Positions 10,477 to 27,745 of a stretch of DNA of 42,866 nt are shown piece by piece (position 1 is the stretch's first letter; each line of letters opens with the position of its first letter). The notes under the pieces were generated by a model that had not been told where the DNA came from, did no database searches, and saw only the letters and a list, made by a program, of their open reading frames with translations. Source of the DNA: Clostridiales bacterium (lineage in GTDB: Bacteria; Bacillota; Clostridia; Lachnospirales; Lachnospiraceae). The position numbers and the translations under genes are program-made. Where the stretch lies: positions 1 to 42,866 of the forward strand of contig JAQXLK010000278.1 in the NCBI GenBank assembly GCA_029012085.1, given 5' to 3'.

Positions 10477-10500
10477 GTCATATACCTCATTCATTCATTT

Positions 10501-10529: not shown

Positions 10530-10533
10530 ACAC

Positions 10534-10565
10534 AAAAACGGTGTGAAGGAAACCCTTCACACCGT
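10534..10565 (-). terminator. Rho-independent terminator of the pilus locus
   Basis: A perfect 12-bp stem (10538-10549 with 10554-10565) with a 4-base loop is followed on the minus strand by TTTTT. It lies about 43 bases after the stop of the fibro-slime gene and marks the end of the pilus transcription unit. Confidence 0.9.
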
Positions 10566-10607
10566 CTTTCATTTTCTTTATATTCTGCATTTGCAGTATT
10601 TTTGATT

Positions 10608-13370
10608 TTACGTCAAATCCTTCAAATCAGGAGCTATTCTCTTTGCTCTCAACTCGAATTTTAAATCCGGATAAGTCCATTGCTTTGCCTCCCAATCATA
10701 TTCTGGGATATACTTAAGTGTTAATTCCGGAACTCCTGCTTCATTAATCCAAATTACACCAACCTCTTTCTCCTTGGTTGAATCATAACCTGTCTGTGGA
10801 ACCTCTTCATCGTTAATAAATAGCTTATAACTGGTTAAGACAGTTGGATCTAACTTAATTGTATAATTTCCCATTGGAAGCTGGTCTAAGCTAACATCTG
10901 TAACTCCAATTACATCCGGATTATTCTCATAATGATAAGCTCCCGGTTTATCTTTGGAATTGCTTATATAATTATATTTTGCATTTGGAGAATCGCCCTC
11001 CCTCACATAGATGACCTCATCATCTGCTTCAGATAACATATAATCACCGTCTCTGTCTATCGTAAACTTACCATAATCAGCTAACTGCTTTTTCTCGTTA
11101 TCTGTCTTGGCAACACATAATTGGGCACTTCCGGTAAGTACCGTTACGGTTCTGTCTTTACCTTCTTTACCTTTTGTTGCTTTTTGAGCACCATCCATCC
11201 ATGCATCATAGGTTACATCCGTATGGAATGTCAAAGATTTCTCATTCACAGTTGTTCCAGCCACATCATCATATTTAGAATATGGTTTAAAAGATGTATC
11301 ATATTGTGGTCCTGTAACTTTAACAACTTCTCCCTGACGTACTTCCAACTTTTTAAAATAATCCGATACAGCAGCTACTTCAGTAGGTGTAGGATTCTTT
11401 GGATCAACAAATGTAAACTCTGCAGTACGTGTAGTATCAATATTACCATTTTCATCCACTACTGTTACCTTTAACTTGTTATCCCTCAGAGTAACACCTT
11501 CACCTAATTTGAAACCATTCGCACCAATCGTATTACCTAATTCATCAGTAAAAGTAATATTTTTATTGGTTGTTAACTCTCGCAAGGTTGTAAAGTTATA
11601 ATTCAAATCCTGAAGATAACCATATGGAATAGAATCATAGTCCATATCAAAACTTACATCATCGTTTGCCAACTTAAAATTCATCTTGCCATAGAAATTA
11701 CTTTCTGTAGAATGACGTTCCATATAGAAGAAATCAAGACTTACAACTTTACCATTCTTGATATCCCACTCTGGATGTTCCGTTGCAATCTTATCCAGAT
11801 TAATTTCTCCATTTAACTGCGTATGCGCACCACCCAAATCCATATACAGATAATCATTTACAAAGACATATACATCATCATCACCAGAGAAATAGAAAGT
11901 CTGCTGTGCACCTTCTTTGTAAACAAATTTACTATGAGATGCAATCGTATAATGGAAGTTATGGTAATTATTACCACTGACAGAGGTACCCCATATTTTA
12001 TAATCAATTTCAGGATAGGCAGAAACAAGATCATCAAGGATAAACATACTACCACCCTCTGTTATCTTATCACCTTTTGTAGTATCCCCGGTATCGGTAC
12101 CAAATGCATTACGAATTGTTTTATCCGTCTTATTATAAATTATATCGTACTTTGGAATTTTGGAACTCGGTTCTGCTGCCGCAAATTCATAATATACTTT
12201 ACCATCACTATCAACTTTATGGAAAATTAAATTCTCATAATCGTTATATTGTGTATTTAAACTTGGATGATAGAGAAATAAATTTTTTGTAACAAAATAT
12301 GCATAATCCATACATGTAGTAATATCTGTCCATCCCAGACTAGGATCATTATCAAACTTAGTTTTTGACTGTGTATAATCACCAAGAGGATATCCCTTAT
12401 CCGGGTCTAAAACGATATATGCTACCGTCAACTTCTCGAATGCTTCATGTAAAGGATCTGTAACGCTATCTGCTATTTCTATAGTCACCTTAATTTCCCC
12501 ATTAGCATCTGCTGAAACCACACTGCCTTTTTTCACAGGAGTATCATTAATAAAAATTTTTGTTTTACCGGTATTATTATAGTTATTATCACCTTTCCAC
12601 AGGGAATTATTTACAGTATAACTGCCAGATAAACCGGTAAAGGTTTTAGAAACAGATACCTTCTTAAAAAAAGTAAGACCGTCTCTACGAACAATATACA
12701 CCGGTGTATCAGGAGTCAATTTATTGCCAGCTGCATCTACCTCATACACCTCCGCATATACTTCTTTATACTTAATCGTGGAATCACCATATGTCCTATT
12801 CTTGTTATAGTCTGAGTTTGGCACCATTTCCATTTTATAAGTAACACCCGGATCTAAACCTTCCGGTTTCCATATGCTATCATAATCACCAGGATTCAGA
12901 TGCTGATTTGTATTCCAGTCTAAAATACTTGCACTAGGTCTTGGATCATAATTTGCTTTCACATATTTTCGCAGACTTAAATCATGATACTCACTGCCAA
13001 CCTTTTTGTTCAACAAATTTGAAGAAAAGTTTCCTTCTAAGTTTTTCTGTACAATTCTTGCTATTTCTTCTACTGTCGATTGTTTGTACACAGGTGTTTT
13101 ATCTGGTCCAAGTTTTTCCTCAACAAGTCCTTTTCCATTTCCCAAACCATAATAATTCGAAAATAAACCCAGATTATACTGAGAAGCATTATTCCACTCA
13201 AACAGCAAATCATCTCTTCGAAAATCCAATACCTGAATTGGAAAATAAATCTCTGGCGGAAACTCATCTGTTGCAGCCTGAACAGCAGAAGGAAATGGTA
13301 TCGCTGTAACTGCCACCAAAACCGCTAACGAAGCAGAGACAATATGTTTCATAAATCTTTTCATTCTCAT
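10608..13370 (-). CDS. Secreted fibro-slime domain protein, candidate pilus-tip adhesin
   Basis: Encodes 920 residues. A Sec signal peptide covers about 1-32 (MRMKRFMKH, hydrophobic core, cleavage near AVQA). A fibro-slime/PA14-like module is centred near 450-560, recognised by FYFSGDDDVYVFVNDYLYMDL, the following LGGAH and LDFFYMERHSTESNFYGK; this resembles TIGR02148 domains first seen in Fibrobacter. The C-terminal 300 residues look like Ig/Cna-B-type beta domains. There is no LPXTG, LysM, SLH or membrane anchor. The gene is last in the type IV pilus locus, 18 bases after a PilW-like minor pilin, and ends at a terminator. This position matches pilY1 in Pseudomonas, so I infer a pilus-associated adhesin, perhaps for carbohydrate or a cell surface. 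Domain and location are seen; the role is inference. Confidence 0.8.
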   Translation of the reverse strand: MRMKRFMKHIVSASLAVLVAVTAIPFPSAVQAATDEFPPEIYFPIQVLDFRRDDLLFEWNNASQYNLGLFSNYYGLGNGKGLVEEKLGPDKTPVYKQSTVEEIARIVQKNLEGNFSSNLLNKKVGSEYHDLSLRKYVKANYDPRPSASILDWNTNQHLNPGDYDSIWKPEGLDPGVTYKMEMVPNSDYNKNRTYGDSTIKYKEVYAEVYEVDAAGNKLTPDTPVYIVRRDGLTFFKKVSVSKTFTGLSGSYTVNNSLWKGDNNYNNTGKTKIFINDTPVKKGSVVSADANGEIKVTIEIADSVTDPLHEAFEKLTVAYIVLDPDKGYPLGDYTQSKTKFDNDPSLGWTDITTCMDYAYFVTKNLFLYHPSLNTQYNDYENLIFHKVDSDGKVYYEFAAAEPSSKIPKYDIIYNKTDKTIRNAFGTDTGDTTKGDKITEGGSMFILDDLVSAYPEIDYKIWGTSVSGNNYHNFHYTIASHSKFVYKEGAQQTFYFSGDDDVYVFVNDYLYMDLGGAHTQLNGEINLDKIATEHPEWDIKNGKVVSLDFFYMERHSTESNFYGKMNFKLANDDVSFDMDYDSIPYGYLQDLNYNFTTLRELTTNKNITFTDELGNTIGANGFKLGEGVTLRDNKLKVTVVDENGNIDTTRTAEFTFVDPKNPTPTEVAAVSDYFKKLEVRQGEVVKVTGPQYDTSFKPYSKYDDVAGTTVNEKSLTFHTDVTYDAWMDGAQKATKGKEGKDRTVTVLTGSAQLCVAKTDNEKKQLADYGKFTIDRDGDYMLSEADDEVIYVREGDSPNAKYNYISNSKDKPGAYHYENNPDVIGVTDVSLDQLPMGNYTIKLDPTVLTSYKLFINDEEVPQTGYDSTKEKEVGVIWINEAGVPELTLKYIPEYDWEAKQWTYPDLKFELRAKRIAPDLKDLT

Positions 13371-13388
13371 CCTATTCCCTCCTCCTTT

Positions 13389-14291
13389 TTACTTCTTTTT
13401 AAACATCTTCTGTGGTACCACAGTCAAGACATTTGAGTTACGTAACAATACGGATTCCGCATAATTATATGTATATTTATGATATCTGGAATCCTCAAGA
13501 AGCATATCGACAAATACTGTCTCAGCTTCAGTATCTGCTGATAAGTAACAATCCTTTACACACTCTGTCAAGAGTCCATTCTCACCTTTTCCCTTGGCTG
13601 CCTTTGTTTTTACGGAAGCTTCCGCGATTCTATAACCGTCTGCAACACCTGTTCCAAAAGCGGAAACATCCCCTCTGTCCATATATATTTCATTACCTTT
13701 AAAGTAATAAATAACATAGGCTTCCGTTTCAACACCATCTATCTTTTTCTGATAGCGCAAATAAATACATTCCGGTTTTACATACAGAGGTTCTCCTGCT
13801 ACACCATCCTTTGTAAGAATTCGGAAAGACTTTACTGCCGTTCCATCTTCATCACCGGATAGCGGATATACAGCACCAGATTCATCCACCAATGTATAAT
13901 CCGTATCGTTCAAAATAATCTTTCGATCTGTTGTTCCGTTTTTTAAATAATTGGGATAATTATCCACTACTAACTGTCCCGAAAGACTTCCACCATCACT
14001 TACACTTCTCGCTTTTCTATTCTTTGCATTTAACTGGTTATCCAGCTTATACATCTTACCATCCTGAGTAGATACTCTGATATACGTTGCCTGAGCTAAT
14101 GCATCCGAAAGCTGTTCTCCCACTTCCATAGCTTCAGTCTGAAGACTCAGATTCTTTTTTGTCTTCGATAAAGCCCCTGATGTTGTACCCATAAACTGGG
14201 TTACCATAATCATAACAATGGACAATAAGGCTACGGCAATCAGTAATTCAATCAATGAGAATCCTTTATTCTTATTCATTTGCTGATTCAA
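13389..14291 (-). CDS. PilW/GspJ-like minor pilin
   Basis: A 300-residue protein with a class III (prepilin) signal, NKNKG|FSLIELLIAVALLSIV, with Phe+1 and Glu+5, and a single N-terminal helix followed by a mostly beta C-terminal domain. The large size and the segment after the helix (TQFMGTTSGALSKTKKNL) resemble PilW/GspJ minor pilins, which help form the initiation and tip complex. The most likely start is TTG at 14291, which has AAGGAGG eight bases upstream; the ATG four codons later is too far from it. The stop of the preceding FimT-like gene is 13 bases upstream, so translation is tightly linked. Confidence 0.8.
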   Translation of the reverse strand: MNQQMNKNKGFSLIELLIAVALLSIVMIMVTQFMGTTSGALSKTKKNLSLQTEAMEVGEQLSDALAQATYIRVSTQDGKMYKLDNQLNAKNRKARSVSDGGSLSGQLVVDNYPNYLKNGTTDRKIILNDTDYTLVDESGAVYPLSGDEDGTAVKSFRILTKDGVAGEPLYVKPECIYLRYQKKIDGVETEAYVIYYFKGNEIYMDRGDVSAFGTGVADGYRIAEASVKTKAAKGKGENGLLTECVKDCYLSADTEAETVFVDMLLEDSRYHKYTYNYAESVLLRNSNVLTVVPQKMFKKK

Positions 14292-14304: not shown

Positions 14305-14850
14305 TTATTTAACATAATGCTTTCCTGAAACAGGGTCTAAAGAAATCGTAGCATATGGTTTCTCACCATATTTTCTGGCATATATCACATAGGAACCACC
14401 ACCATATTTTGTAGAACCGTCTGATTTAATAAACTGTATTATCATATCACTGCCTGACCACGCCTGCCCTGTGGCTGGCTGATATTCAATCTTTGAAATC
14501 TCTTTTGATAAGACCGCTTCACAATTTTCATCTTTATTTGGATTTAATGCGTTCCCTGCACTATCTGTTATGTTACTACCATTAACATACCCTGTCATAA
14601 TCGCATAGGTACCATCTGTTCTTTCTTTAATCACCATGCAAAGCGGGGTACTTGTGCTGTTTGTTGAAGTGGAAACCGCTTTTGTTCGGACCAGACAACT
14701 GCTCATCTGATTATTCAGCTCACTTACTGCAGACTGACGTTTCGATTCTTTTATAATTCCGATGGTAATAAAAGAAACACCACCAAGAATCGCTATGATT
14801 GCGATTACAATAATCATTTCAACCAGTGTATACCCTTTGTTTTTCTTCAT
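14305..14850 (-). CDS. FimT/GspH-like minor pilin
   Basis: Encodes 181 residues with a type III prepilin signal MKKNKG|YTLVEMIIVIAIIAIL (Tyr+1, Glu+5). The globular part is about 145 residues. The size, single helix and position among other minor pilins suggest a FimT/FimU/GspH-like subunit, though the globular domain gives no strong family signature. The ATG at 14850 is chosen because GGTGG lies five bases upstream and the basic leader is then the usual six residues; a GTG three codons earlier is possible. PilD in this locus should cleave after Gly6. Confidence 0.78.
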   Translation of the reverse strand: MKKNKGYTLVEMIIVIAIIAILGGVSFITIGIIKESKRQSAVSELNNQMSSCLVRTKAVSTSTNSTSTPLCMVIKERTDGTYAIMTGYVNGSNITDSAGNALNPNKDENCEAVLSKEISKIEYQPATGQAWSGSDMIIQFIKSDGSTKYGGGSYVIYARKYGEKPYATISLDPVSGKHYVK

Positions 14851-14862
14851 ATATACCACCGC

Positions 14863-17703
14863 CTAATCTACATTCTTCTTCCAGTTCTTGAAAGCTAAAA
14901 TGTCTTCATACTGAACTGCTGTTATGCTCTTCATAGATTCCACATTACTATCCGGTGTGGTTGAGGTTGAAAACTCACTTGGAACATAATGACGGAACAA
15001 GGAACAAATGCCTGATAAATCCTCACCGCCAAGTCTCTTTGACTCATCACACTCTCGTAATACCGATTTAATAATTTCTGCATTTGCAACAAAATCAATA
15101 GAATGCTCAACTTTAATCTTTCCGCCTGCAACAATCAGACCTTCAAATTCTTTCACATTGGAATCAAATGTTACATCACCTTTACAGATAACAATACCCT
15201 TTACTCTGCCATCCGGAGTATCCGCTGAAACATTAACATTAGCTTCTCCTAAAAAGACAATATATCCGGATTTCATCTTATTCTTAGCCTTTATTTTACC
15301 TCTGTCTTTTGTTTCAGTAATGCCATTCAGACCTTCAAAATTGAAATAATAATTAATCGGTGTGATATTACCTTCATCCGCAGTATAGGCATTTTCCACT
15401 GCAACAGCATTAGTAGAGTCGCTTGTTAAGAGCATCTTCATCTCTTTATATTCCTTCTGCAGACCTTTTGTAATCTTTTGTGAATATTGCTGTGGATTGG
15501 AACCAGCAACCGAATCATCCGGCACATCGTCCTGAAGCTTTTTATCCAATGCTTTTTTCGCCTCTAAAAGAGGTGCCACACTCTTACTGTCTGCTTTAAT
15601 GGTAACCTTATCACCTTTCTTTACAGAAATAGCAGAATTAGAATAAATTTTACTCACATCCACATTAACAAGATTAACCTTAAACTCATCATAATCTGTT
15701 ATATCATAGAAGTTTGCAAGATCACCCTTTGTGTGTGTCTCACCAGCAGCCAAGTCAAAGAGCTTTGTGTACTCTTCCATATATTTATTCATTGTAACAG
15801 CATCTTTTGCCTGGGAAAAATCATAAAAATAATACTCAGAACCGGAAATTACGGTTTTAATAACCGGAACCTTGCTAAGATCATCCCACATATCTTTAAA
15901 ATAGTCTGCTGTTCGAATACTCTCCGGCCATATAACATATAAACTTCCATCCGTTGGATCCTCTTTTACATTATATGGCGGAATATATGCCAGCTGATTA
16001 CTCTTAACAGAAAGACCTTCACCTGTGCGATAATCCTGGATTCTTGTTTTGTTTCCATCCTTATCCATAGAATAGTTTTCATCTGATTTCTCTTCATATG
16101 AATAGGTATCCTTTGTTACTCTCTCCACACTACCATCGTCTGGTGTTGTAGGTGTTACAGGTGTCAGTGTCAATTTATTATCCGCTTCTGTTGCCACATA
16201 CTCATTTGATGTAGTAGCTTTTGACATTTCCACATAAGCCTGACCTGCAATATACATGGTATTCACATTTGATAAATCCAATGTGGAATCAGAACCATTC
16301 ACAACTACAGAACTACTATTGTAGTGTGCCTGACCTACCAAACGGTTTCCTTCCCCATCTTCGCCAATGTAGTTACCATCATTAATCTTAACAATAGACT
16401 TTCCATCTTTATCTTTCAAAAACTTTCGATTGGTAGATGCTTCAATAAAATCATCGCTATACTTACGATTATCGGTAGAAGCATAATTGTAACCATAATA
16501 GGTTCCATCTAAAGCAAATCCGGAACCTGCGGCATTTACTTCCAAGTCATCATAAACATAAGAATCTGCTTTCATCTTAAGGTTAGAACCTCTATAACTG
16601 TCCGTTCCAACCTTCTTTCTGGAATAGCCGCCTAATATAATACCATCTGCCCATACCTTAGTTGGAGACGCACCACCGTCTTTTATGCTACCAACCACAT
16701 TCAGATTTGCACAGTTCATGGAAGCAAGACTTCCCGGAACAATCAGTTTATCTGCCATAATAGTCACTTTTGCACCATTCACATAAAAACCGGAATACAT
16801 ACTCTTTTCTGAAACGCCATCACACTTTTTCAGCTCATCATCCGAATAGGAATTCACTCTGTTTGCTAATGGCTTTGTTCTTGTATCATCTGTTTCCTCT
16901 TCTACTTTTCCCGTAGATGCATTTGAATTATATTCTTTGTTGTAAAAGTCTGCTGCTGCATAAACATTACCGATAATACTGGAATTCGTTGAAATTCCGT
17001 TTACCTCAACACCCATGTCACTAATCATTACAAAATCATATAATTCGCTGATATCATTGCCCACAGAATCAAAATCAATATTGAAATCCGGAACGCTAAT
17101 CGTCAAGTCGGTTGTAATAGACTGAACAAAAGTGGTAGCAGCTCTCTTGTCACCGTTTTTCTTTGCGTTTACTGTACTATATTCCGCTTCTCTTGATAGT
17201 ATAACATCTTTAATAGTCAAAACATCGCCCTCTAATGCAACATTTCCGACAGAAATTTTAACTCCCTCCGGCACGGATGAACTGTACTGATTACTAATCA
17301 TACCATTCAGAGTATCAACAATGTTGGCATACTGAAGTTTTGAATCTTCCGTAAGCTTATGCAAAAAGGTATTTTTCATCAGCTTGTTTGCATCCGCATT
17401 CTTCATCGTCATATAAGTCTTTGATACAGAATCGAAATATACGATTACTTCTGATGTTTCATCATAAGCAGCATTCAGATGTTTCATGCTGATTTCACCA
17501 ACACCTTCATAAATCTCATCCATCGCCTGTTCCAAATAGTAAAAGTTATCTCTGGAATTAATGTCATAAGCTTTCATCCGGAAACATAAGGCCACTGCAA
17601 CCAAAAGTGCTGTAACTAAGACTGCAAGAAAGGAAATAGTTGCTACTACAACAATAAAGCTGTTTCCTTGATTTGACTTTCTTTTTCTTTTCAGTTTAAT
17701 CAA
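14863..17703 (-). CDS. Giant PilX/GspK-like minor pilin with large passenger domain
   Basis: A 946-residue protein with a prepilin-like N terminus: a very basic leader, then QG|NSFIVVVATISFLAVL. Position +5 is Val, not Glu. Absence of Glu5 is typical of PilX and of GspK, the large minor pseudopilins found at the tip. The remaining 900 residues contain repeated short beta segments (VNGAKVTIMADKLIVPGS, LNVVGSIKDG, MYIAGQAYVEMS, GIVICKGDVTFDSN, EGLIVAGGKIKVE), suggesting a beta-helix or stacked beta architecture as in PilX/DUF7305-type proteins. It is several times the usual PilX size and could display a functional domain at the pilus tip. TTG at 17703, with GGAGG eight bases upstream, is the likely start; it overlaps the PilV-like gene by eight bases. 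Confidence 0.75.
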   Translation of the reverse strand: MIKLKRKRKSNQGNSFIVVVATISFLAVLVTALLVAVALCFRMKAYDINSRDNFYYLEQAMDEIYEGVGEISMKHLNAAYDETSEVIVYFDSVSKTYMTMKNADANKLMKNTFLHKLTEDSKLQYANIVDTLNGMISNQYSSSVPEGVKISVGNVALEGDVLTIKDVILSREAEYSTVNAKKNGDKRAATTFVQSITTDLTISVPDFNIDFDSVGNDISELYDFVMISDMGVEVNGISTNSSIIGNVYAAADFYNKEYNSNASTGKVEEETDDTRTKPLANRVNSYSDDELKKCDGVSEKSMYSGFYVNGAKVTIMADKLIVPGSLASMNCANLNVVGSIKDGGASPTKVWADGIILGGYSRKKVGTDSYRGSNLKMKADSYVYDDLEVNAAGSGFALDGTYYGYNYASTDNRKYSDDFIEASTNRKFLKDKDGKSIVKINDGNYIGEDGEGNRLVGQAHYNSSSVVVNGSDSTLDLSNVNTMYIAGQAYVEMSKATTSNEYVATEADNKLTLTPVTPTTPDDGSVERVTKDTYSYEEKSDENYSMDKDGNKTRIQDYRTGEGLSVKSNQLAYIPPYNVKEDPTDGSLYVIWPESIRTADYFKDMWDDLSKVPVIKTVISGSEYYFYDFSQAKDAVTMNKYMEEYTKLFDLAAGETHTKGDLANFYDITDYDEFKVNLVNVDVSKIYSNSAISVKKGDKVTIKADSKSVAPLLEAKKALDKKLQDDVPDDSVAGSNPQQYSQKITKGLQKEYKEMKMLLTSDSTNAVAVENAYTADEGNITPINYYFNFEGLNGITETKDRGKIKAKNKMKSGYIVFLGEANVNVSADTPDGRVKGIVICKGDVTFDSNVKEFEGLIVAGGKIKVEHSIDFVANAEIIKSVLRECDESKRLGGEDLSGICSLFRHYVPSEFSTSTTPDSNVESMKSITAVQYEDILAFKNWKKNVD

Positions 17704-19090
17704 TTTCTCCGCCTCCTCTTGTTCCCTGTAACACCGGACCCGGCTTCTTTATAGCTTCTTCATCCAATGATGCGCCTTCCTGCATCCACACCTTAACCTC
17801 ATATAAACCTCTCATTCCACTTAAGGCCTGATTTAAATTCTGAACAGAAGGTACTGCTTCAAATATATGTGTTGCATCATGATACAACATCTGTGTCTTT
17901 CCGGCAGCTGTACTGTCACATACCACATCCAAATTCTTGCTATTATGGTTATTCCATTCTGCTAAAGCTGTTTCGTACTCTTCCCTCGTTTTGTAGTCAC
18001 TTTCCAACGGTGCGAACATATTATGATACACATGGAAATTTTTTCTCTTTTCCTCTGTTAATCCATTCTTTAATAATGCCATACTAATGGAAGCTCCATC
18101 ACGAACATTACCATTTGCTTTCCGATATAAACCGGAAGCATCTCCTTTTAAAACATTTTCATTTTCAGCATCTACTGATTTTATATCCTGAGAATAATTT
18201 GCTGCTGTTTCAATCACAAACACATTCACTTCCGATTTTTCATCCACACCGGAAATATCATATGTAATATAATCATTTGTGTACTGCTCATTGTATACAC
18301 CAACATTATACATCAGATAAATATTCGGCAGCTTATCAAAATGCTTTTGATATGGTGTATATTCCACCATACCAACATTATTTCCAATGGATAAATACTC
18401 ACCATTATCAGAATAGTTCAGTGTACATTTCACATCAAAACCACTTGATGCATCACCTTTTACTTCAATATTGATAATACGATTACCGGTATCGTTATTG
18501 AATTTTTCTGCATCTCTTATCGGATCATATGCATCACCCTGCATTTCACGTAATTTTGTCATTTTTTTCGTTAATAATGCATCACGTGCCGGTGTATCAT
18601 AGTTTGCAAGGGTGGCACTGATAAGTGCCACCTTTGACTGATCCAAGTCTTCAACCAAACCGGATGTCACATTGTTCGGATTCATTTTTCCGGCAGCCTG
18701 CAGGACTGCATAAGGCTGACTGCTCATTTCAATCAGGTAAGAATATTCCGTACGTTCCACGCCGAGATAAGTCGTTCCCTTTATAGTATATACATCATAT
18801 GGGTATACCTCCGAAGGATCACTCTCCGTATGAGAAATAGCAACTCCTTTCGACCCAAGCTTTTCAAAATATGATGCATCACCATCATTCAATACGTCAA
18901 TCGGCACTTCTTTCATACTCTCCATAAGATTCTGTGCGTATTCATTACGATTCTGAACCTCTTTACCGGTCGTTGTCGTCTTCATACCGGTAATCAATCC
19001 ATTTACAATCGGAATCATCATGACAGAAAATATTGCTAAAGCAATCAATACCTCAACCAGACTGACACCTTTATTTACTTTACGTACCAT
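17696..19090 (-). CDS. PilV/GspI-like minor pilin
   Basis: Encodes 464 residues beginning MVRKVNKG|VSLVEVLIALAIFSVMM, a prepilin signal with Glu+5. The VSLVEVLIALAIFS core is typical of PilV/GspI-type minor pilins. The protein is longer than Gram-negative PilV (about 185 residues), as often seen in Clostridia. The C-terminal part has no signature I recognise. GGAGT lies eight to nine bases before the ATG. The stop overlaps the start of the PilX/GspK-like gene, consistent with a coupled minor-pilin module PilV-PilX-FimT-PilW. Confidence 0.8.
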   Translation of the reverse strand: MVRKVNKGVSLVEVLIALAIFSVMMIPIVNGLITGMKTTTTGKEVQNRNEYAQNLMESMKEVPIDVLNDGDASYFEKLGSKGVAISHTESDPSEVYPYDVYTIKGTTYLGVERTEYSYLIEMSSQPYAVLQAAGKMNPNNVTSGLVEDLDQSKVALISATLANYDTPARDALLTKKMTKLREMQGDAYDPIRDAEKFNNDTGNRIINIEVKGDASSGFDVKCTLNYSDNGEYLSIGNNVGMVEYTPYQKHFDKLPNIYLMYNVGVYNEQYTNDYITYDISGVDEKSEVNVFVIETAANYSQDIKSVDAENENVLKGDASGLYRKANGNVRDGASISMALLKNGLTEEKRKNFHVYHNMFAPLESDYKTREEYETALAEWNNHNSKNLDVVCDSTAAGKTQMLYHDATHIFEAVPSVQNLNQALSGMRGLYEVKVWMQEGASLDEEAIKKPGPVLQGTRGGGEID

Positions 19091-19106: not shown

Positions 19107-20360
19107 CTATTGATATACCTTTACTAATCCGGACTTTGTAATTGTTACTCTTGGTGAAACTGCATCATCTTCACTTACCTTTACATATACCGGCATAGAA
19201 GATGTATTACGGATTGTAATCTTAACGCCTACCTTATCATCCTCATTCTTTCTTGCAGAAGACTGAATTAAAAGTTTAATATCATCTGCTGAAGTTACTT
19301 CTGCTTCATAATTCTTACTACCATCTAATGTATACTTACAATAAACTTTTCCATCCTTCTCATAAATATCATAACTTAAAGAAGATACAGAATTTTCATT
19401 ATCGGTAACGACTGTTTTCTCCTTACCGGTGCCATTCTGACCAATAACCTTTGCAGATACATCACTAGTTGCTGCATTTAACATGGTATAGAAATCATAA
19501 GATGTCTCAATTGCTGCTCCATCCTTGTCATCATACTTATTCAAAGATGAATCAGAAGAAGATTTAGCACCTCCGTTACCACCTTCAAAGATGTTATCTA
19601 CACCAATCTCAACTTCATTCAGCTCTAAGCTGCGTTCCGGTCTTTCCTCACCCTCTACAGAATAGCAGGTAAGATTTAAATTACCACTGTAAATACCCTC
19701 ATCCGAGAAGGAAATATCCAACGAATCAACTGTCATACGATCCGAAAAGTTGTCAATGTACTTTACAACATCCTTCAAAGACTTATATGAACCGGTATAA
19801 GCAATTGGGAACTCTGCACTGTAACAAATGAGCTGATTCGGATCTGCTGCTGTACCTGCCTCCACAAGCTCACCAGAATCTGTTGTCTCTGTACTTGCAG
19901 TCTCTGTTGTTGCAGTCTCTGTACTTGCAGCCTCTGTTGTAGTCCCATCTGCTGTCGTATCCGTTGAAGCTGTTCCATCCAAAGTAGCATCCGCACCATT
20001 TGTACCCAATGTATAGAATGGGACCTTTTCACCTAATCCCAAAGATACAATGCTAAAATCATTATCATCTTTAATGCCTTCTAAGAACATAATCGTGATT
20101 TCCTGATTCAAATCTGCCGGAAACCGATCTAAGACCGCCTCATACTTCTCCTTATATTCCACAATTCCTGCTTCATACTTTTCTCTGTCGGCTTCCTTTG
20201 CCTGCAATTCCTTTAATCGTGCATCCAACTGCACACACTCTGCTTCCAATGCGGAACGCTGTTCAAAATTTGGTTTTGCAATATAGAAAATAGATAAAAA
20301 ACATACCGCTGCACCTAATAATCCAATTAATGCAGCTTTTTCTGAACTCTTTAAACTCAT
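19107..20360 (-). CDS. pilO: PilO-like inner-membrane alignment protein with Thr-rich insert
   Basis: A 417-residue bitopic protein: a short cytoplasmic N terminus, one transmembrane helix (about 11-29), a coiled coil (about 35-80) and an extracytoplasmic domain with the PilO-like pattern of a ferredoxin-like fold (FPIAYTGSYKSLKDVVKYIDNF). PilO links the PilM/PilN assembly to the pilus machinery. Between the coiled coil and this fold, residues about 125-165 are an unusual Thr/Ala/Glu-rich low-complexity stretch encoded by 15-nt repeats. The C-terminal extension of about 170 residues is longer than canonical PilO. AGGAGG precedes the ATG. The gene directly follows pilM-pilN by 13 bases, the expected position. 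Confidence 0.75.
   Translation of the reverse strand: MSLKSSEKAALIGLLGAAVCFLSIFYIAKPNFEQRSALEAECVQLDARLKELQAKEADREKYEAGIVEYKEKYEAVLDRFPADLNQEITIMFLEGIKDDNDFSIVSLGLGEKVPFYTLGTNGADATLDGTASTDTTADGTTTEAASTETATTETASTETTDSGELVEAGTAADPNQLICYSAEFPIAYTGSYKSLKDVVKYIDNFSDRMTVDSLDISFSDEGIYSGNLNLTCYSVEGEERPERSLELNEVEIGVDNIFEGGNGGAKSSSDSSLNKYDDKDGAAIETSYDFYTMLNAATSDVSAKVIGQNGTGKEKTVVTDNENSVSSLSYDIYEKDGKVYCKYTLDGSKNYEAEVTSADDIKLLIQSSARKNEDDKVGVKITIRNTSSMPVYVKVSEDDAVSPRVTITKSGLVKVYQ
19886..19945 (-). repeat. 15-nt tandem repeat inside the pilO-like gene
   Basis: Four adjacent 15-nt units (the first and third identical, the second with two or three changes, the fourth degenerate) encode repeats of the form TETAS/TETAT. 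The unit is five codons, so copy-number change would lengthen or shorten the linker without a frameshift. Confidence 0.8.
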
Positions 20361-20373
20361 ACGTCATCCCCTC

Positions 20374-22002
20374 CTATTCAGCCTGCAATGTTGCATCGCC
20401 GGTTTCACTTTCTATTTCATTTTCCGTTTCTTCTTCCACCATAGATACAAAATTACATGTAAGGGAAAAAGTATAGGTGATAGAACCGGTATCATCATCT
20501 TCTTCTTCATCAATTGAAGTAACAAATGCATTCTCAATACATTCAACCTTCTTTAACTGTACAACCAGCTTTGCAATTGCATCATAGCTTGCTGAACTAC
20601 CTGAAATATTCACGGACTCATCATTCGAACTATATTCTGTAATAATCATATCCTTCGGCTGATTTGCTTCTAATGCATCAATGAACATACTTACATTTTC
20701 ATTCAAGGTACGGGTCTGATTATACATTACCATTGCATCTTCATACTTTGCCTTGGTTTCTTCGTACTCATTAATAACCTGTTCCACATCCTGAATTGCT
20801 AAAATCTGTGCATTCAGATTATCCCGCTTTTGTTGGGAAGCATTCTTCATTACTATGGATACCCCACTTACCGCAACACCGACAACAATCAATACAACCG
20901 TTGCTACAATAGCACCTTTAACATAATCCACATTACTAGAAGAGCTGCTCTTTACCTCAGAAAGGCGGAAGCCCATAGGCTCAAAAGCCGCACCAATCGC
21001 CACAATCAGATATACCGGGTTGTATATCTTTAAATCAATCTTTGGATCAAACTTAACGTTATATAAACTGTCTAATACTCTTGTCTGAATATTCAACTGA
21101 ATCTTAAACAAGCCATCAATACCACGAATCAAAGCACCATCACCGGTAAGATACACGTCATCAATCGGCTTATCCGGATTCTTTGTCATATAATAATCCA
21201 CGATACGTCCAATATTATTAATCAGATAACGGAATGCACCAGTCGCCGCATTATCATCAAAATCCACCGTAATCAACCTGTCATTTTGTAACAAGGTCAT
21301 TGCAGTTGTGGCATCCACACCCTTTTCTTCCATAACCTCAGTTACAACCGGATTAATTCCATAAGGAACGGTTCTCTGAAGCAATAAGGTATCGCCTCTT
21401 ACAATGTTCAAAATAGTAGACTCACTACCTAACTGGATTACCATTGTTGTAGTAGATGCACTCGTCTGTGTCTTAATCATCTGAAGCATAGCATTACCGA
21501 CATAGTCAATAGACTGTACATTCAGGCCAACCATACTTCCTAACTCATAGTAACCCTTTACCATATTAAGTGGTGCAGCAACTACCATAAGCTTTAACTG
21601 CTTTGCATTATTTTCATCTACTACATGCTCTAATATAGAGTGAGAAACAACGTAATCCTCTATATTAACAGGGAAATACTCGGATGCATTTGCACTGACA
21701 ATTCCCCTTACTTTGTTCTCTTTTACATCCGGAATTAAAACTTCACGGTTTACAACCTTTGTTGAAGTCAGAACAAATATTACATTCTTGTTCGTAATTC
21801 CATTACTATCTAACTGTTCGCGAATTGCGGATGCAATTCTCTCTACATTCTTAATTGTACCATCTTCATAAGAATCATCCGGTGTTTCAAAAATTAACGT
21901 ATTATGTACAATCGTCTGTTTCTTGTCTGAAGGTGTTACTTCCACTATTGTTATGCTTTCATTTGTTATCTCTACTGTTAAGACTTTATTATTCTTTGCC
22001 AT
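20374..22002 (-). CDS. pilM: PilM-PilN fusion protein
   Basis: A 542-residue protein combining two usual pilus proteins. Residues 1 to about 350 are an actin-like (ATPase fold) PilM domain: a beta-rich start KVLTVEITNESITIVEV, REVLIPDVKENKV, SANASEYFPVNIEDYV, and the phosphate-binding-like TTMVIQLGSESTILNIV. About residues 358-380 are a transmembrane helix, followed by a coiled coil and a PilN-like fold (KPDMIITEYSS-type region, VNISGSSASYDAIAKLV). In most bacteria PilM binds the cytoplasmic N terminus of a separate PilN; here the two are covalently joined. The order pilD, pilMN, pilO fits a type IV pilus inner-membrane platform. A GGGAGG ribosome binding site precedes the ATG. Confidence 0.85.
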   Translation of the reverse strand: MAKNNKVLTVEITNESITIVEVTPSDKKQTIVHNTLIFETPDDSYEDGTIKNVERIASAIREQLDSNGITNKNVIFVLTSTKVVNREVLIPDVKENKVRGIVSANASEYFPVNIEDYVVSHSILEHVVDENNAKQLKLMVVAAPLNMVKGYYELGSMVGLNVQSIDYVGNAMLQMIKTQTSASTTTMVIQLGSESTILNIVRGDTLLLQRTVPYGINPVVTEVMEEKGVDATTAMTLLQNDRLITVDFDDNAATGAFRYLINNIGRIVDYYMTKNPDKPIDDVYLTGDGALIRGIDGLFKIQLNIQTRVLDSLYNVKFDPKIDLKIYNPVYLIVAIGAAFEPMGFRLSEVKSSSSSNVDYVKGAIVATVVLIVVGVAVSGVSIVMKNASQQKRDNLNAQILAIQDVEQVINEYEETKAKYEDAMVMYNQTRTLNENVSMFIDALEANQPKDMIITEYSSNDESVNISGSSASYDAIAKLVVQLKKVECIENAFVTSIDEEEDDDTGSITYTFSLTCNFVSMVEEETENEIESETGDATLQAE

Positions 22003-22022: not shown

Positions 22023-22877
22023 TCAGAAGTTAATTATTAGGGCTTCTAAGCCCAATACACTCAGGTACCAGCTCACAAGCTGTTCACCGCATATCATTGT
22101 TATATAAACGCCCAAAGATAAATACGGGCCGAGAGCAAACTGTCTGCCGCTCCTCTTAATCTTCATCAACATCAAATGTATCACTGACCCTGCAACACAT
22201 CCAATCATCAATGCAAGAAAATTAAGTTTCCAGCCTAAAAGCAAGCCGGTTGCTGCCATTAATTTGATGTCACCGCCCCCTATTGCACCATCAATCTCCA
22301 TACCTTCCTTTGCATACCGCTTTTTTAATATGGGAGTTGATATTTTATCAATAAGGAATAAAAAACCGCTGACTACAAAAAGACCTATTGCATAATCCAA
22401 CCAATTAGATAAATCCATAAACATATGAATCAGTCCACAAATAAATAGTATTCCACTCATCTCCAGTGGGATATATTGGGTATTCCAGTCCACAACACTT
22501 AAGGACAATAAGGCTGCAGTGGATACCACATAAAGGATATTAACGGTACTCATTCCCTTCGACCAAAAAAGGAATCCCATTAATATCACATGAAAAAAAA
22601 GATAGAGAATGTATGTCTTTCGTTCACTATCTACGCAGCAGGTACACTTTTTTCTTACTTTATAATAAGAAACCAACATAAATTCATTGAGCCAATCACT
22701 CTTTCCTCTTTTCAGAGGCTGTTTTGCGAAACAACTCTTCTCATCCACACATTGTTCGCAGACTGTGCCATCTTCTACCTTTTTAATAAATAAAGAAAGA
22801 GGAATTGCCACCATACCTACAACACCTGACAGCAATCCTATCACTATCACCAAAAACATATCCATCTCATTCACCAT
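22023..22877 (-). CDS. pilD: Prepilin peptidase (A24 family)
   Basis: Encodes about 284 residues with six to eight membrane helices. The A24 aspartate pair is present: Asp in SVVDWNTQYIP and Asp in the GGGDIKLMAATG motif. The enzyme cleaves the basic leader after Gly in the five prepilins encoded here, and can methylate the new N terminus. The cytoplasmic segment has Cys pairs (CEQC and a KKCTCC cluster) resembling the zinc motif of full-length PilD, though with altered spacing. The start is uncertain: ATG at 22877 directly after a strong hairpin, ATG at 22865, or GTG at 22889 inside the hairpin. The AAAGGGG that could act as ribosome binding site lies in that hairpin. Confidence 0.88.
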   Translation of the reverse strand: MVNEMDMFLVIVIGLLSGVVGMVAIPLSLFIKKVEDGTVCEQCVDEKSCFAKQPLKRGKSDWLNEFMLVSYYKVRKKCTCCVDSERKTYILYLFFHVILMGFLFWSKGMSTVNILYVVSTAALLSLSVVDWNTQYIPLEMSGILFICGLIHMFMDLSNWLDYAIGLFVVSGFLFLIDKISTPILKKRYAKEGMEIDGAIGGGDIKLMAATGLLLGWKLNFLALMIGCVAGSVIHLMLMKIKRSGRQFALGPYLSLGVYITMICGEQLVSWYLSVLGLEALIINF

Positions 22878-22913
22878 AATCCAATACACCCCTTTAATGG
22901 GGTGTATTGGATT
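22878..22913 (-). promoter_or_regulatory. Perfect 15-bp hairpin between pilA and pilD
   Basis: The arms 22878-22892 and 22899-22913 pair perfectly over 15 bases with a six-base loop. It sits 15 bases after the pilA stop and abuts the pilD start. On the minus strand no U-tract follows, so it is not a classic terminator in that direction. It can stabilise the 3' end of the abundant pilA message and at the same time bury the AAAGGGG that may serve as the pilD ribosome binding site. On the plus strand it is followed by TTTTATT. Confidence 0.85.
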
Positions 22914-22927: not shown

Positions 22928-23398
22928 TTAGTTAGCATTCTTTAAATCGAAATACTCACCCTGTGTAGGATAAACCATGTATTTCTCATCTCCATCGTTA
23001 CCAGCATAAACTTGAACCTGACCTGCATTATAAATCACATAGAATTTACCATCAAAACCAGGCTTGCTTCCATCAGCAGCTTTCTTTGCCTTCTGTACAA
23101 CGCTAGCTGAATCTCCTAAAGTTTTCACCAATTCATTACCTAAAGAAGTACCAGATGCAGTTTCTTTGCTACCATATGCTTCATCAAAAGTAGAAGGTGT
23201 TGCATCATCAATAGCCTCATTTGTTAATGCAGTCTGAATAGAACTTGCAATTGAATCACCTGTTGAAATATCAGCAGAAATTCTTGATCTTGCAATGTAC
23301 TTAATAAGTGTTGGTGCTAAAGCACCTGCTAAAATTGCCATAATTGCGATTACAATTATAAGCTCAACCATTGAGAAACCTTTGTTTGTTTTTTTCAT
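22928..23398 (-). CDS. pilA: Major type IV pilin
   Basis: A 156-residue prepilin: leader MKKTNKG, then FSMVELIIVIAIMAILAGAL with Phe+1 and Glu+5, the hallmarks of type IVa major pilins. The mature protein would be 149 residues: a long N-terminal helix and a small beta domain. It has no Cys, so it lacks the D-region disulfide of many Gram-negative pilins, as is usual in clostridial pilins. It is the smallest and simplest pilin of the locus and lies between pilC and pilD, hence major rather than minor. AAAGGAG is about eight bases upstream. A strong hairpin follows the stop. Confidence 0.9.
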   Translation of the reverse strand: MKKTNKGFSMVELIIVIAIMAILAGALAPTLIKYIARSRISADISTGDSIASSIQTALTNEAIDDATPSTFDEAYGSKETASGTSLGNELVKTLGDSASVVQKAKKAADGSKPGFDGKFYVIYNAGQVQVYAGNDGDEKYMVYPTQGEYFDLKNAN

Positions 23399-23495: not shown

Positions 23496-24704
23496 TTACA
23501 TATTATCAAGATTACTGTACATACTAAGAATTGGTCCATATACGGCTGCTACAATCACACCTACAATACCAGCCATGAACACCATAGTGAGTGGTTCCAT
23601 TGCCTGAGTCAGCGACTCTGTTGCCAAATCCACTTCTCTGTCATAAAGATCAGCCAGCTTATCCATCATATCTTCAATATTACCGGTCTCTTCACCAATC
23701 TTTACCATCTGAACAAGCATAGTAGGGAATACCTCCATGTCCTTAAGTGGCTTTGATAAAGGAAGACCTTTTGCCACCTGAACTTTTGTATCCATCAAGC
23801 CATCCCGGAACACTTTATTGCCCATCATCTTTGCCACCTGTTCAATGGCATCCAACATTGGAATACCTGCCGCCATCAGTGTGCTTAAGTTTCTTGCAAA
23901 TCTTGCTGAGTTTGACTTGATTACAATGTCACTAAATATCGGAGCATTAATCGCTGCCTTTGCAAAAAGCATCTCTCCAGTCGGAGTTGCTTTAAACGCC
24001 TTGATTCCAATTACAATTCCTGCAATAATGATAAGTAACAGCCACCACTTATGTAACACAAAATCACTACCTGCCATCATAATTCGGGTTGCCACCGGAA
24101 GGTCGACTCCCATATCAGCAAACATATCCTTAAACTGCGGAATTACTGCAATCATAACTACGATAATAACTAACACCGCTACAACCAATACCATAATCGG
24201 ATAAGTAAAAGCACCTTTAATCTTACTCTTTAATGCATCATCTTTTTCAAAGTGTGTCGACAACCGTTCAAAAGATGTCTCCAGATTACCGGAAGCCTCA
24301 CCTGCCGATACCATGTTAATCATAATCGGAGGGAAGATATTTGGATTCAGTCTCAAGGAATCTGCCAAGCTTCCTCCCTTCTCCACATGAACCTTTGCTT
24401 CTATCAAAGCATTCTTTAAAACCTTATTATCCAACTGTTCAGAAAGCATGTCCAATGCAGTAATAACGGTAACACCTGCATTCAATATACTTACCATCTG
24501 TTTACATATAATGGATAATTCCCGGCTCTTCACCTTTTTCTGTAAACTAAAGCCTGCTTTGCTCTCTCCGGCATCTTTCAATTCCGTGATAGAAAGCCCT
24601 TCGCTTCGCAGTTTCTCCTGGGCTTTCTCCCGGTCTGCCGCATCAATGGTACCTTTCTTTGCCTTACCATACTGATCTACTGCTTTATAATTAAATTGTG
24701 CCAT
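23496..24704 (-). CDS. pilC: Type IV pilus inner-membrane platform protein
   Basis: A 402-residue polytopic protein with two T2SSF (GspF/PilC) domains, about residues 65-190 and 270-395, each followed by hydrophobic segments (YPIMVLVVAVLVIIVVMIAVI; LTMVFMAGIVGVIVAAVYGPIL). Conserved features include ISAGEASGNLE-type motifs (NMVSAGEASGNLETSFERL and QMVKIGEETGNIEDMMDKL). PilC forms the membrane core that is turned by PilB and PilT. The N-terminal MAQFNYKAVDQYGKAKKGTIDA is typical of the family. GGAGG precedes the ATG by about six bases. The gene follows pilT after a 207-base gap. Confidence 0.93.
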   Translation of the reverse strand: MAQFNYKAVDQYGKAKKGTIDAADREKAQEKLRSEGLSITELKDAGESKAGFSLQKKVKSRELSIICKQMVSILNAGVTVITALDMLSEQLDNKVLKNALIEAKVHVEKGGSLADSLRLNPNIFPPIMINMVSAGEASGNLETSFERLSTHFEKDDALKSKIKGAFTYPIMVLVVAVLVIIVVMIAVIPQFKDMFADMGVDLPVATRIMMAGSDFVLHKWWLLLIIIAGIVIGIKAFKATPTGEMLFAKAAINAPIFSDIVIKSNSARFARNLSTLMAAGIPMLDAIEQVAKMMGNKVFRDGLMDTKVQVAKGLPLSKPLKDMEVFPTMLVQMVKIGEETGNIEDMMDKLADLYDREVDLATESLTQAMEPLTMVFMAGIVGVIVAAVYGPILSMYSNLDNM

Positions 24705-24911: not shown

Positions 24912-25964
24912 CTATATTTTCTTTCGCAAGGCTGCCTGATCCTGCGCGTAAATTAGTGCATTTTCACGACTGATAGCTCCTTCTTTGTACAAATCATACA
25001 GATAATCATCTAATGTAATCATGCCCGCCTGTCGACTGGTCTGAATAGTCGATTGAATCTGATGCGTCTTTGCATCACGTATCAGACTACGGATTGCAGG
25101 ACTTCCAAACATAACTTCAAAAGCTGCTACACGCCCTCTTCCATCTTCCGCCGGAATCAATGCCTGTGAGATAACACCTTCCAAAATCATGGCAAGCTGT
25201 ACTCTCGTCTGTTGCTGCTGATGAGTAGGGAATACGTCAATAATACGGTCAATGGTATTCGCTGCACCAATTGTATGCAAAGTAGAAAATACCAAATGTC
25301 CGGTCTCAGCCGCAGTAATCGCCGTTGATATCGTCTCTAAGTCACGCATCTCTCCTAACAGAATGATATCCGGATCTTCACGAAGTGCTGCTCGCAATGC
25401 ATTACCATAGCTTAACGTATCCATACCGACCTCACGCTGGTTCACGACAGACTTCTTATGGTGATGCACATACTCAATTGGATCTTCCAATGTAATAATA
25501 TGATCCGTCAGATTCTCATTCGCCTTATTAATAATAGAAGCAAGTGTTGTGGATTTACCGGAGCCGGTCGGTCCGGTTACCAATACAAGTCCTCTCTTTT
25601 TCTTGTAAAGCTCTACTACTTCATGCGGAATTCCCAACTGATCCGGTCTCGGAATCACCGTCTCCACGCGTCGGTAAGCAGCCGCCATATTTCCTCTGTC
25701 CATAAACACATTCACACGGAAACGCCCCGTCTCATCCGAATCAAACGAAAAGTCAACTTCTCCTCTTTCCTTTAAAATCTGCTTATGTCTCTCATGCATC
25801 GTAGCCCCAATCATCTCTGCCGCATCCATCGGCTCTAATGGTGGAGCCTCCACCTCAATCAACTTACCGTTAATTCTAAGCTTTGGTGGAATACCTACTG
25901 CAATATGCACATCCGATGCCTTCTGTTCCACTGAAAACGCCAATAATTCTTTAATATCAATCAT
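24912..25964 (-). CDS. pilT: Twitching motility / retraction ATPase
   Basis: A 350-residue hexameric secretion ATPase of the PilT type. Walker A GPTGSGKST is near residue 135, Asp box with LEDPIEYVH, Walker B DPDIILLGEMRD near 203, and the His box GHLVFSTLHT. The C-terminal AIRSLIRD motif corresponds to the PilT signature AIRNLIRE, needed for retraction. The absence of the tetracysteine zinc motif also distinguishes it from PilB. PilT depolymerises pili, giving twitching motility, surface adherence or DNA uptake. It is 59 bases downstream of pilB on the same strand. Confidence 0.94.
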   Translation of the reverse strand: MIDIKELLAFSVEQKASDVHIAVGIPPKLRINGKLIEVEAPPLEPMDAAEMIGATMHERHKQILKERGEVDFSFDSDETGRFRVNVFMDRGNMAAAYRRVETVIPRPDQLGIPHEVVELYKKKRGLVLVTGPTGSGKSTTLASIINKANENLTDHIITLEDPIEYVHHHKKSVVNQREVGMDTLSYGNALRAALREDPDIILLGEMRDLETISTAITAAETGHLVFSTLHTIGAANTIDRIIDVFPTHQQQQTRVQLAMILEGVISQALIPAEDGRGRVAAFEVMFGSPAIRSLIRDAKTHQIQSTIQTSRQAGMITLDDYLYDLYKEGAISRENALIYAQDQAALRKKI

Positions 25965-26023: not shown

Positions 26024-27745
26024 CTACTCTTCATCTCCGGCCTGATATACAATCTTGCGCATCTCGCCAATAGAGGTGATACCATTCAACACATGTCGGC
26101 TGCAGCTAATCTTAAGAGTAGACATTCCTTCTTTCAGTGCCTGTTCTTCGATTACCTGCGCCGGTGAGTTCTTAGCAATAATCTGCTGCAGATTTCTCGA
26201 AACCTCTAGCATCTCGTATACACCAATACGTCCGGTAAATCCGGTGTCGTTACAGATTGCACATCCATTCGGCTCGTATATTACCACATCATCCTCATCC
26301 TCCGGAACTCCTAAAAACTTTCTTTCATAGTCCTCTGCAAAACGCGGTTGCTTACAGGTGCATAATCTTCGCACAAGACGCTGTGCAATAACACCCTTTA
26401 AGGCATCTCCGGCAGTATAAGGCTCAATTCCCATATCAATCAGACGGGTTACCGTAGAAGCTGCGGAGTTCGTATGCAATGTAGATACCACCAAGTGACC
26501 GGTAATAGCCGCCTTAACCGCAATATCCGCCGTCTCGCCATCTCGAATCTCACCAATCATAATAATATCCGGGTCCTGACGCAGAATAGAACGAAGTGCT
26601 GCCGCAAAGGTCATGTCCGCTTTTTCATTCACCTGACACTGATTAATACCATCAATATTCGCCTCCACCGGATCCTCTACTGTAACAATATTAACCTCTT
26701 CTGTATTCAGCTCACTTAACGCCGTATACAATGTGGTAGACTTACCGGAACCAGTCGGTCCGGTTACAAGGATAATACCATTCGGATTACTCAGGATATC
26801 ATCAAACCGCGCCTCTTCTTCCGGGCTGAAACCAAGTCCCGACTTTGCACGTGTCAGACCCTCCTTCGAAGTAAGACGCATTACCGTCTTCTCTCCATAC
26901 ACCGTAGGCAACATAGACACACGGATATCAAATTCTTTACGGTCTACCATGATAGAGATACGTCCATCCTGAGGCTTACGTTTTTCGGAAATATCCATAC
27001 CACCCATGATCTTTAAGCGGGCACAAATACCGGAAAGCAAGGAATAGTCATAGGACATTACCTGCTTTAACACACCATCAATACGATAGCGGACACGAAC
27101 CGAACTTTCAAGTGGTTCAATATGAATATCAGAAGCTCTCTGCCTTACTCCACCCTCTAAAATCTGCTTAACTAAAAGTACAATTGGAGAATTTTCAATA
27201 TCATCATTATACTGTTCTTCCTCCGCTTCAGACAGCATAGACTGTTCCCGTTCCTTCCGGTATGCCTCAGCCGCCTCCATTGCCTGATGATTACCATAGT
27301 ACTTACCAATGGTCTCACTAATATCATCTTCCATGGCAAGTACAGCCTCTATCTGCGAACCGGTAACAATGGTCAAGTCATCAACCACCATAATATCCAT
27401 CGGATCCGACATGGCGACCCTCAAAACATTCGGGTTCCTCTCATCATATCCCAACGGAACCACTCCATATTTCATAACCATCTCTTCCGGAATCAGCGAA
27501 AGTACTTCATCATCAAACTTACATCCTCGAAGCTCTACGAAATCCACACCAAGCTGTCTCGTCAAAACAGCAATCAGCAGTTCCTTGCTGATAAAGTTCT
27601 TTTCCAAAAGAACCCTTCCTAACTTCTTTCCTTCCGATTCTTTCTGAATCGCCAGCGCTTCCTGCAGTTGTTCCTCGGTAATTGCACCTGCCGTCACAAG
27701 CAAATCACCCATTCTAATTTTTTTTCTTCCTACACCAATTCGCAT
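26024..27745 (-). CDS. pilB: Pilus assembly ATPase PilB with MshEN-type c-di-GMP-binding domain
   Basis: A 573-residue extension ATPase. Residues about 10-75 carry two MshEN repeats: RMGDLLVTAGAITEEQLQEA and the following LAIQ fit the RLGxxLxxxGxLxxxxLxxxLxxQ pattern fully, and KKLGRVLLEKNFISKELLIA with LTRQ fits with one change. MshEN domains of this type bind cyclic di-GMP in Vibrio MshE and clostridial PilB. The ATPase core follows: Walker A GPTGSGKST near 330, Asp box VEDPVEANI, Walker B DPDIIMIGEIRD near 390, His box GHLVVSTLHT. A zinc-binding tetracysteine (CTC near 463 and CAIC near 496) is typical of PilB/GspE. GAGG precedes the ATG. There is no clear promoter in the 65-base gap upstream. 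Confidence 0.94.
   Translation of the reverse strand: MRIGVGRKKIRMGDLLVTAGAITEEQLQEALAIQKESEGKKLGRVLLEKNFISKELLIAVLTRQLGVDFVELRGCKFDDEVLSLIPEEMVMKYGVVPLGYDERNPNVLRVAMSDPMDIMVVDDLTIVTGSQIEAVLAMEDDISETIGKYYGNHQAMEAAEAYRKEREQSMLSEAEEEQYNDDIENSPIVLLVKQILEGGVRQRASDIHIEPLESSVRVRYRIDGVLKQVMSYDYSLLSGICARLKIMGGMDISEKRKPQDGRISIMVDRKEFDIRVSMLPTVYGEKTVMRLTSKEGLTRAKSGLGFSPEEEARFDDILSNPNGIILVTGPTGSGKSTTLYTALSELNTEEVNIVTVEDPVEANIDGINQCQVNEKADMTFAAALRSILRQDPDIIMIGEIRDGETADIAVKAAITGHLVVSTLHTNSAASTVTRLIDMGIEPYTAGDALKGVIAQRLVRRLCTCKQPRFAEDYERKFLGVPEDEDDVVIYEPNGCAICNDTGFTGRIGVYEMLEVSRNLQQIIAKNSPAQVIEEQALKEGMSTLKISCSRHVLNGITSIGEMRKIVYQAGDEE

Follow-up and report, generated by a model that had tools for sequence, protein, structure and literature searches.

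A fibro-slime protein in the terminal slot of a Lachnospiraceae type IV pilus locus: a candidate non-pilin tip adhesin

The fibro-slime gene and its pilus operon

The window examined here, a stretch of 42,866 nucleotides from a Clostridiales bacterium of the family Lachnospiraceae, carries on its minus strand a type IV pilus (T4P) operon whose last gene (10608..13370) encodes a 920-residue fibro-slime protein, labeled FS throughout and proposed to be a non-pilin adhesin of the pilus tip. FS is recognized by its open reading frame (ORF), by two profile matches and by its occupancy of the same slot in nine genomes of the genus, its own included. Its fibro-slime/PA14-like core (residues 469–563; 11682..11966) coincides with the match to TIGR02148 (Fibro_Slime; E 6.7e-25, 87.4 bits against a cut-off of 45) and lies within that to PA14 (PF07691; residues 459–571, 40.2 bits against a gathering cut-off of 24), and the translation contains the motifs SGDDDVYVFVN, LGGAH, and ERHSTESNF. 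A putative Sec-type signal peptide spans about residues 1–32 (13275..13370), as read from the sequence, where the structure model of FS places a low-confidence helix at residues 3–20. Inspection of the translation by eye found neither LPXTG nor a C-terminal membrane segment; FS ends in LKDLT and does not have the LPXTG-type C-terminus of a sortase-anchored adhesin. The tail that we propose as a donor strand (residues 912–920; 10611..10637) lies past the last modeled strand (903–911). A strong ribosome-binding-site-like run, AGGAGGAGGG (13377..13386, read directly), precedes the start codon by 6 nt, and 18 nt separate the start from the stop codon of the pilin gene before it. Found by hairpin scan and sequence reading, a terminator-like hairpin with a 12-bp stem (10538..10565) lies 3′ of the stop codon; the scan lists it on the plus strand, and on the minus strand TTTTGTG comes after the stem. 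The initial annotation had described a Sec-exported, unanchored 920-residue protein with this core and these motifs, closing a pilus locus directly after four minor pilins, and the ORF, both profile matches and the 18-nt gap bear it out.

The operon runs pilB-pilT-pilC-pilA-pilD-pilMN-pilO-pV-pX-pH-pW-FS, all on the minus strand, where pV, pX, pH, and pW are our own labels for the minor pilins. Nearest to FS, the PilW-like pW (13389..14291) and the small pH (14305..14859), GspH/FimU-like by size and position, both match the N_methyl family (PF07963 for pW) and possess Glu5 as read at their N-termini. They are preceded by the large pX (14863..17703), which combines a prepilin-like helix without Glu5 with a tapirin-type domain and is the proposed docking partner, and by the PilV-like pV (17696..19090), with an N_methyl match and a PilV-model match (E 1.6e-6) under its cut-off. 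Then come a PilO-like protein (19107..20360), a PilM-PilN fusion (20374..22002) that matches PilM_2 and PilN, a PilD-like prepilin peptidase (22023..22889), and the PilA-like major pilin (22928..23398), again N_methyl. Position and synteny suggest the PilO name, for which no PilO Pfam match was obtained, and sequence reading and synteny the PilD name, with no NCBIfam match at 1e-5; no library match stands behind either. The set is completed by the platform protein PilC/GspF (23496..24704; best match GspF, 366 bits against a cut-off of 424), the retraction ATPase PilT (24912..25964; TIGR01420, above cut-off), and the extension ATPase PilB (26024..27745; TIGR02538, E 5.4e-183, 609.6 bits against 675.7). 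PilB, PilM (slightly), and PilC score under their NCBIfam equivalog or subfamily cut-offs. PilB, PilT, PilC, PilM, PilN, and pilins, which together mark a type IVa pilus (T4aP) locus, are all present in the window, and FS follows the minor pilins, as genes for PilY1/PilC do.

Occupants of the terminal slot

The genus was compared over 26 genomes, including the window's own (G000; 91.6% complete, 8% contamination); many of the genomes used throughout are metagenome assemblies. Four named relatives retrieved with the FS protein are likewise Lachnospiraceae metagenome assemblies, from sources that include goat colon, rumen, and reindeer. The pilus locus is syntenic across the genus, and a PilB copy at least 82% identical to that of the window occurs in 22 of the 26 genomes, its own among them. 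TIGR02148 matches 10 of the 26, at 12 places, nine of which adjoin pW directly, that is, nine of the nine whose upstream neighbor is visible; it is not visible on a 3.6-kb contig (G018:C462), where only 436 bases lie upstream (G000:C75), and where the ORF is cut at its 5′ end (G017:C51). The last two are second copies that lack the tail, and their genomes also carry FS in the slot. The copy at G000:C75 is a 1508-residue gene followed by a 299-residue ORF with an LPxTG-like end, and the pair may be two genes or one broken gene.

At the other 11 genus loci the gene 3′ of pW is unrelated to FS, is about 1700–2080 codons long, and in each case matches PF16480 (DUF5057). The terminal slot is therefore filled in all 20 readable genus loci, by FS in 9 and by DUF5057 in 11. 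The two occupants are mutually exclusive: PF16480 matches 13 of the 26 genomes and none of the 10 with FS, G000 included, and its profile matches neither FS nor any of nine orthologues. Three genomes have neither (G007, G008, G020), and a close copy of the window PilB is also missing there; it is missing too from G012, where pH-pW-FS lies on a short contig. A second DUF5057 gene lies outside the pilus slot of G009 (G009:C227:9682-11523).

Trees of PilMN plus PilO, of pX, and of pW, built from 18 genus loci (seven with FS) and four outgroup loci (all with DUF5057), with the broken loci of G006 and G012 left out, place the FS loci as one clade within DUF5057-bearing lineages, with SH-aLRT support of 99, 100, and 98, respectively. 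The simplest account is a single replacement of DUF5057 by FS in the genus.

Beyond the genus, genomes were sampled evenly from larger groups, which underlies the family and class counts that follow, and contig ends fall within several loci. Of 298 family genomes, 57 have a TIGR02148 match, G000 among them, and 40 of the 78 listed FS places outside the genus were fetched. Homologues of pV, pX, pH, pW, pilMN, or pilO were found in none of these 40 neighborhoods, the upstream side being cut off in at least five. Among these and the class-search regions described below, a contig end hides the upstream neighbor in at least L120, L121, L126, L143, L147, and L241, and at L128 and L245 pilT/pilC-like genes lie within 19 kb of FS on the opposite strand. 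An FS ORF was recognized in 35 of the 40 regions and is complete in 32, of which 14 have a sortase-like C-terminus by regular expression. A class-wide search with an FS profile matched 14 of 391 genomes, with only the FS core aligning outside the genus; no minor-pilin operon was found in the 12 regions fetched from it, G045 and G155 being listed by the search and not part of that fetch. A quick tree built from 54 FS cores, on only 99 columns, groups the nine pilus-linked proteins as a clade (SH-aLRT 95), whose closest neighbors are FS proteins that have no sortase signal.

FS as a general Clostridial tip protein was consequently rejected, with the minor-pilin operon in 0 of 40 outside-genus and 0 of 12 class-search regions. 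The survey of genomic context that the initial annotation had called for divides by scale: at the family level none of the 40 fetched FS genes lies in such a pilus locus, the outcome that the annotation had named as a refutation, and the general claim was therefore too wide, whereas within the genus every FS with a visible neighbor follows the pilins.

The slot itself, judged by sequence comparison, is real. Of the Lachnospiraceae loci with pX in other genera, 32 were fetched and 29 have a complete large gene 3′ of the pilins; 27 of these 29 products match a full-length profile built from the genus DUF5057 proteins, whose counterparts in other genera range from 858 to 2334 residues. In total, the slot is occupied in 29 of the 30 other-genus loci readable past pW. 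The placement of FS in a pilus-terminal slot thus held, and the slot proved conserved after the minor pilins, but FS is not its usual occupant, as DUF5057 fills it in 27 of 29 loci of other genera and 11 of 20 in the genus. The same slot holds, at L211, a terminal protein of 918 residues ending in FFMLD and, at L218, one of 2847 residues ending in YFDLY, neither with a Pfam match. In other families, four of five fetched DUF5057 loci are T4P loci, the fifth (G362) being a sub-threshold match. One T4P locus, L259, holds two terminal non-pilin proteins side by side (4633-14369), one with DUF5057 and the other with NPCBM/SpaA, with near-identical tails.

C-terminal tails, the large minor pilin, and the proposed tip protein

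The occupants of the slot, unrelated in sequence, have similar C-termini. All nine complete pilus-linked FS proteins end in L-x-D-L-T, seven of them in PLxDLT, and none of the 32 complete FS proteins from outside the genus does. The genus DUF5057 proteins (n = 11) carry LF[DE]LT near the end, and the terminal proteins of other genera end in LFDLD, LYELD, LFELN, LHDLT, and the like. Among the latter, 26 of 29 fit the pattern [LFIYM]xxL[DTNE]-end (all except L199, L201, and L218) and 29 of 29 have Leu at position −2, as against 2 of 988 other ORFs of at least 150 residues from the same sets of loci, and 0 of the 32 other FS proteins, that fit the pattern; the count includes L206 and excludes L196, L216, and L219, whose terminal gene is not complete. 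L083 and L084 do not fit the P-x-L regular expression, yet contain LFDLT, and the Fisher values for these comparisons disregard relatedness. In the FS model, the tail is coil past the last strand, with pLDDT below 50 for residues 915–920, which would fit a strand that becomes ordered only on binding its partner, although low confidence alone would look identical. Comparison of sequences establishes the locus, its synteny, the exclusivity of the two occupants, the single replacement, and the common tail.

A plausible partner lies within the operon. Tip-most pilins of the GspK type lack Glu5, and so does pX: Glu at position +5 is missing from all 46 parsed pX sequences (51 in all, five unparsed), in keeping with a tip pilin of the GspK/PilX type. 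pX has no Pfam match, and its assignment to the minor pilins is based on its place in the operon and a prepilin-like N-terminus; homologues are present in 34 of the 298 family genomes. A fold search finds the tapirin C-terminal fold in pX, whereas tapirin chains give no sequence match to it at E ≤ 1. It differs from the tapirins of Caldicellulosiruptor in having kept a prepilin-like helix at its N-terminus and in its setting among minor pilins.

The closest functional parallel is PilY1/PilC (PF05567) of diderm T4aP, which, like FS, is a large non-pilin with a variable head encoded together with minor pilins. For Myxococcus xanthus, the accessible portions of one paper describe AlphaFold-Multimer models in which the C-terminal LQNVYELP of PilY1.3 forms a strand on PilX3, and SKVLIYAP of PilY1.1 likewise on PilX1 (PMC11046646); a C-terminal PilY1 strand on PilX is also reported, for four complexes, in the excerpted text of a 2026 paper, which refers to a preprint on strand complementation in tip complexes (PMC13190605). 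The C-terminal stretch of FS is of similar character to the PilY1.3 strand; by analogy, the FS and DUF5057 tails appear similar to it in make-up, and less so to PilY1.1. FS differs from PilY1/PilC in its monoderm host and in the absence of PF05567 from the Pfam scan of the window FS (E ≤ 0.1, PA14 alone listed) and from nine orthologues. A PF05567 search of the 26 genus genomes also gave no match, but its controls were silent too, so that it is no proof of absence.

The reading that we consider probable is that FS is a non-pilin tip protein, a counterpart of PilY1/PilC without homology to it, docked by its tail strand, probably directed at polysaccharide, and derived from one replacement of DUF5057. 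FS would pass through Sec and come free outside the membrane, where its free tail (...PxLKDLT) would dock, most likely as a β-strand added to the tip-most minor pilin. pX is the candidate partner and pW a possible one; strand addition to pX was chosen because the tails resemble the PilY1 strands in make-up and pX lacks Glu5. The minor-pilin complex would then prime filament growth and carry FS outward, so that its PA14/fibro-slime head is presented to a ligand, most likely a polysaccharide. FS would have arisen once in the genus by displacing a DUF5057 tip protein, with the slot and tail retained. The tip location, strand addition, adhesion, and ligand are what we infer here. A non-homologous fibro-slime protein in the PilY1 role, as first suggested, hence remains the best reading, given the slot and the PilY1-like tail, at the scope of this genus and not as a general rule.

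Several observations weigh against it. The FS model is of moderate quality (pLDDT 61.2, pTM 0.52), and the fold search on pX speaks to a shared fold, not function. The tail pattern was composed after the tails had been inspected, so that its counts describe rather than test. Fairer are the loci fetched later and judged by eye: the tail is found in the single own-family locus (L262, ending MFLLE) but in only two of five other-family terminal proteins, both of them from L259 (the DUF5057 and NPCBM proteins, ending VKLPSLD and VKLKSLD). LF[DE]LT is the exact C-terminus of one genus DUF5057 protein and is followed by 10–29 residues in the other 10, so it need not be a free end. Profile alignment of the C-termini of FS and the genus DUF5057 proteins covers only the last 23–28 residues, at 15% probability with 60-residue profiles and 2–3% with longer ones, and found no match between FS and the DUF5057 proteins of other genera. 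Finally, L219 has complete minor pilins and no large gene past pW; its genome (G109) contains six FS matches.

FS could instead be an ordinary secreted adhesin, merely co-transcribed with the pilus genes and residing on the wall or in the medium without contact with the pilus. Its Sec signal and missing anchor agree with this, as does the absence of such pilus loci around the FS genes fetched elsewhere, and fibro-slime proteins of Fibrobacter are, in the available part of one report, most abundant in the medium (PMC4668043). Such a protein, however, would leave unexplained the strict exchange of FS and DUF5057 in one slot, a tail common to unrelated occupants, and its absence from all 32 complete FS proteins that come from beyond the genus, and we regard this account as unlikely. 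There is still less to be said for FS, like DUF5057, being mainly a priming or stabilizing factor for filament assembly with a head that is no adhesin: pilC/pilY1 mutants are non-piliated unless pilT is lost too, according to excerpts of PMC4471445 and PMC10191384, and the slot is filled almost throughout (20/20 and 29/30 loci), but the heads are unrelated and variable, some with carbohydrate-binding-type modules, which makes this role very improbable. Equally slim is the chance that FS is a secretion substrate expelled by a pseudopilus-like filament without becoming a lasting tip adhesin, since, although PulA (type II secretion) and TcpF (type IVb pilus) are listed as non-pilin tip-located effectors beside PilC1/PilC2 in part of PMC10191384, PilT and a T4aP-type set are present in the locus, and in a monoderm there is no outer membrane through which a substrate would have to pass.

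The gripping of targets by Gram-positive T4P is poorly understood. Reviews, in the portions available, treat PilC/PilY1 as a diderm, mainly proteobacterial component, thus placing the non-pilin tip protein in diderms, and modular pilins as the solution of Streptococcus sanguinis (PMC6916266, PMC10191384, PMC4471445). The modular minor pilins PilB/PilC of that species likewise put adhesive modules at the tip of a monoderm T4P, but there the head is grafted onto a pilin, whereas FS lacks a prepilin sequence and would attach as an independent protein. Fibrobacter succinogenes proteins share the fibro-slime domain with FS, and antibodies to fibro-slime proteins blocked adhesion to cellulose by 62% in work cited in the available text of PMC4668043; the fibro-slime genes of that species, unlike FS, typically have hypothetical genes as neighbors, and some lie close to cellulases or a CBM6 gene, with pilin genes at other loci (PMC3079729, in part). 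The literature found on fibro-slime together with T4P, as far as its text was available (these two papers), concerns Fibrobacter, and PilY1 in a rumen review is merely an entry in a biomarker table of the part available (PMC6167468). In the open literature searched, mostly titles and starts of abstracts, we found no report of a non-pilin tip protein in monoderm T4P, no combination of a PA14 domain with T4P, adhesin, and minor pilin, and no use of the term DUF5057. A protein of the FS type would, on the best reading, be the functional counterpart of PilY1, not its homologue, which would suggest that tip adhesins are exchangeable in Gram-positive pili, much as they are in Gram-negative ones. With a tip slot and tail conserved across the Lachnospiraceae, a role could be proposed for DUF5057, fibro-slime and tapirin-type adhesins would be parts of the same machine, and the last nine residues would offer a simple handle on tip docking in gut and rumen bacteria.

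A wider scheme may be put forward more tentatively. Monoderm T4P of Clostridia might carry a PilY1-like set of plug-in tip proteins with unrelated DUF5057, fibro-slime, or NPCBM heads, sharing one C-terminal donor strand docked on a Glu5-less pilin of tapirin fold, so that the tip would be a two-part device for gripping polysaccharide whose outer head is exchanged in evolution. If true, the tapirins of thermophiles would be detached or specialized relatives of the pX-type minor pilin.

Further observations on the locus

A sigma-70 scan of the window gave 67 promoter-like sites, about equal to the 60.5 (standard deviation 9.0) of shuffled sequences. A hairpin with a 15-bp stem (22878-22913) lies between the major pilin and pilD genes and overlaps the listed start of the pilD ORF; it is perhaps an attenuator that sets the excess of pilin. 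For the PilM-PilN fusion there is also a weak match, far under cut-off, to the Amuc_1101 PilM-like family (E 3e-15). Residues 11–64 of PilB match an MshE-related cyclic di-GMP-binding domain (60.4 bits; cut-off 38), and several genus genomes hold a second PilB-like ATPase, about 39–42% identical, in another gene setting (G016:C16, G007:C59, G020:C19, and others). Leucine-rich-repeat surface proteins lie on both sides of the locus, at 283-4848, where LRR_5 was tested, and at 27811-29301, identified by reading only.
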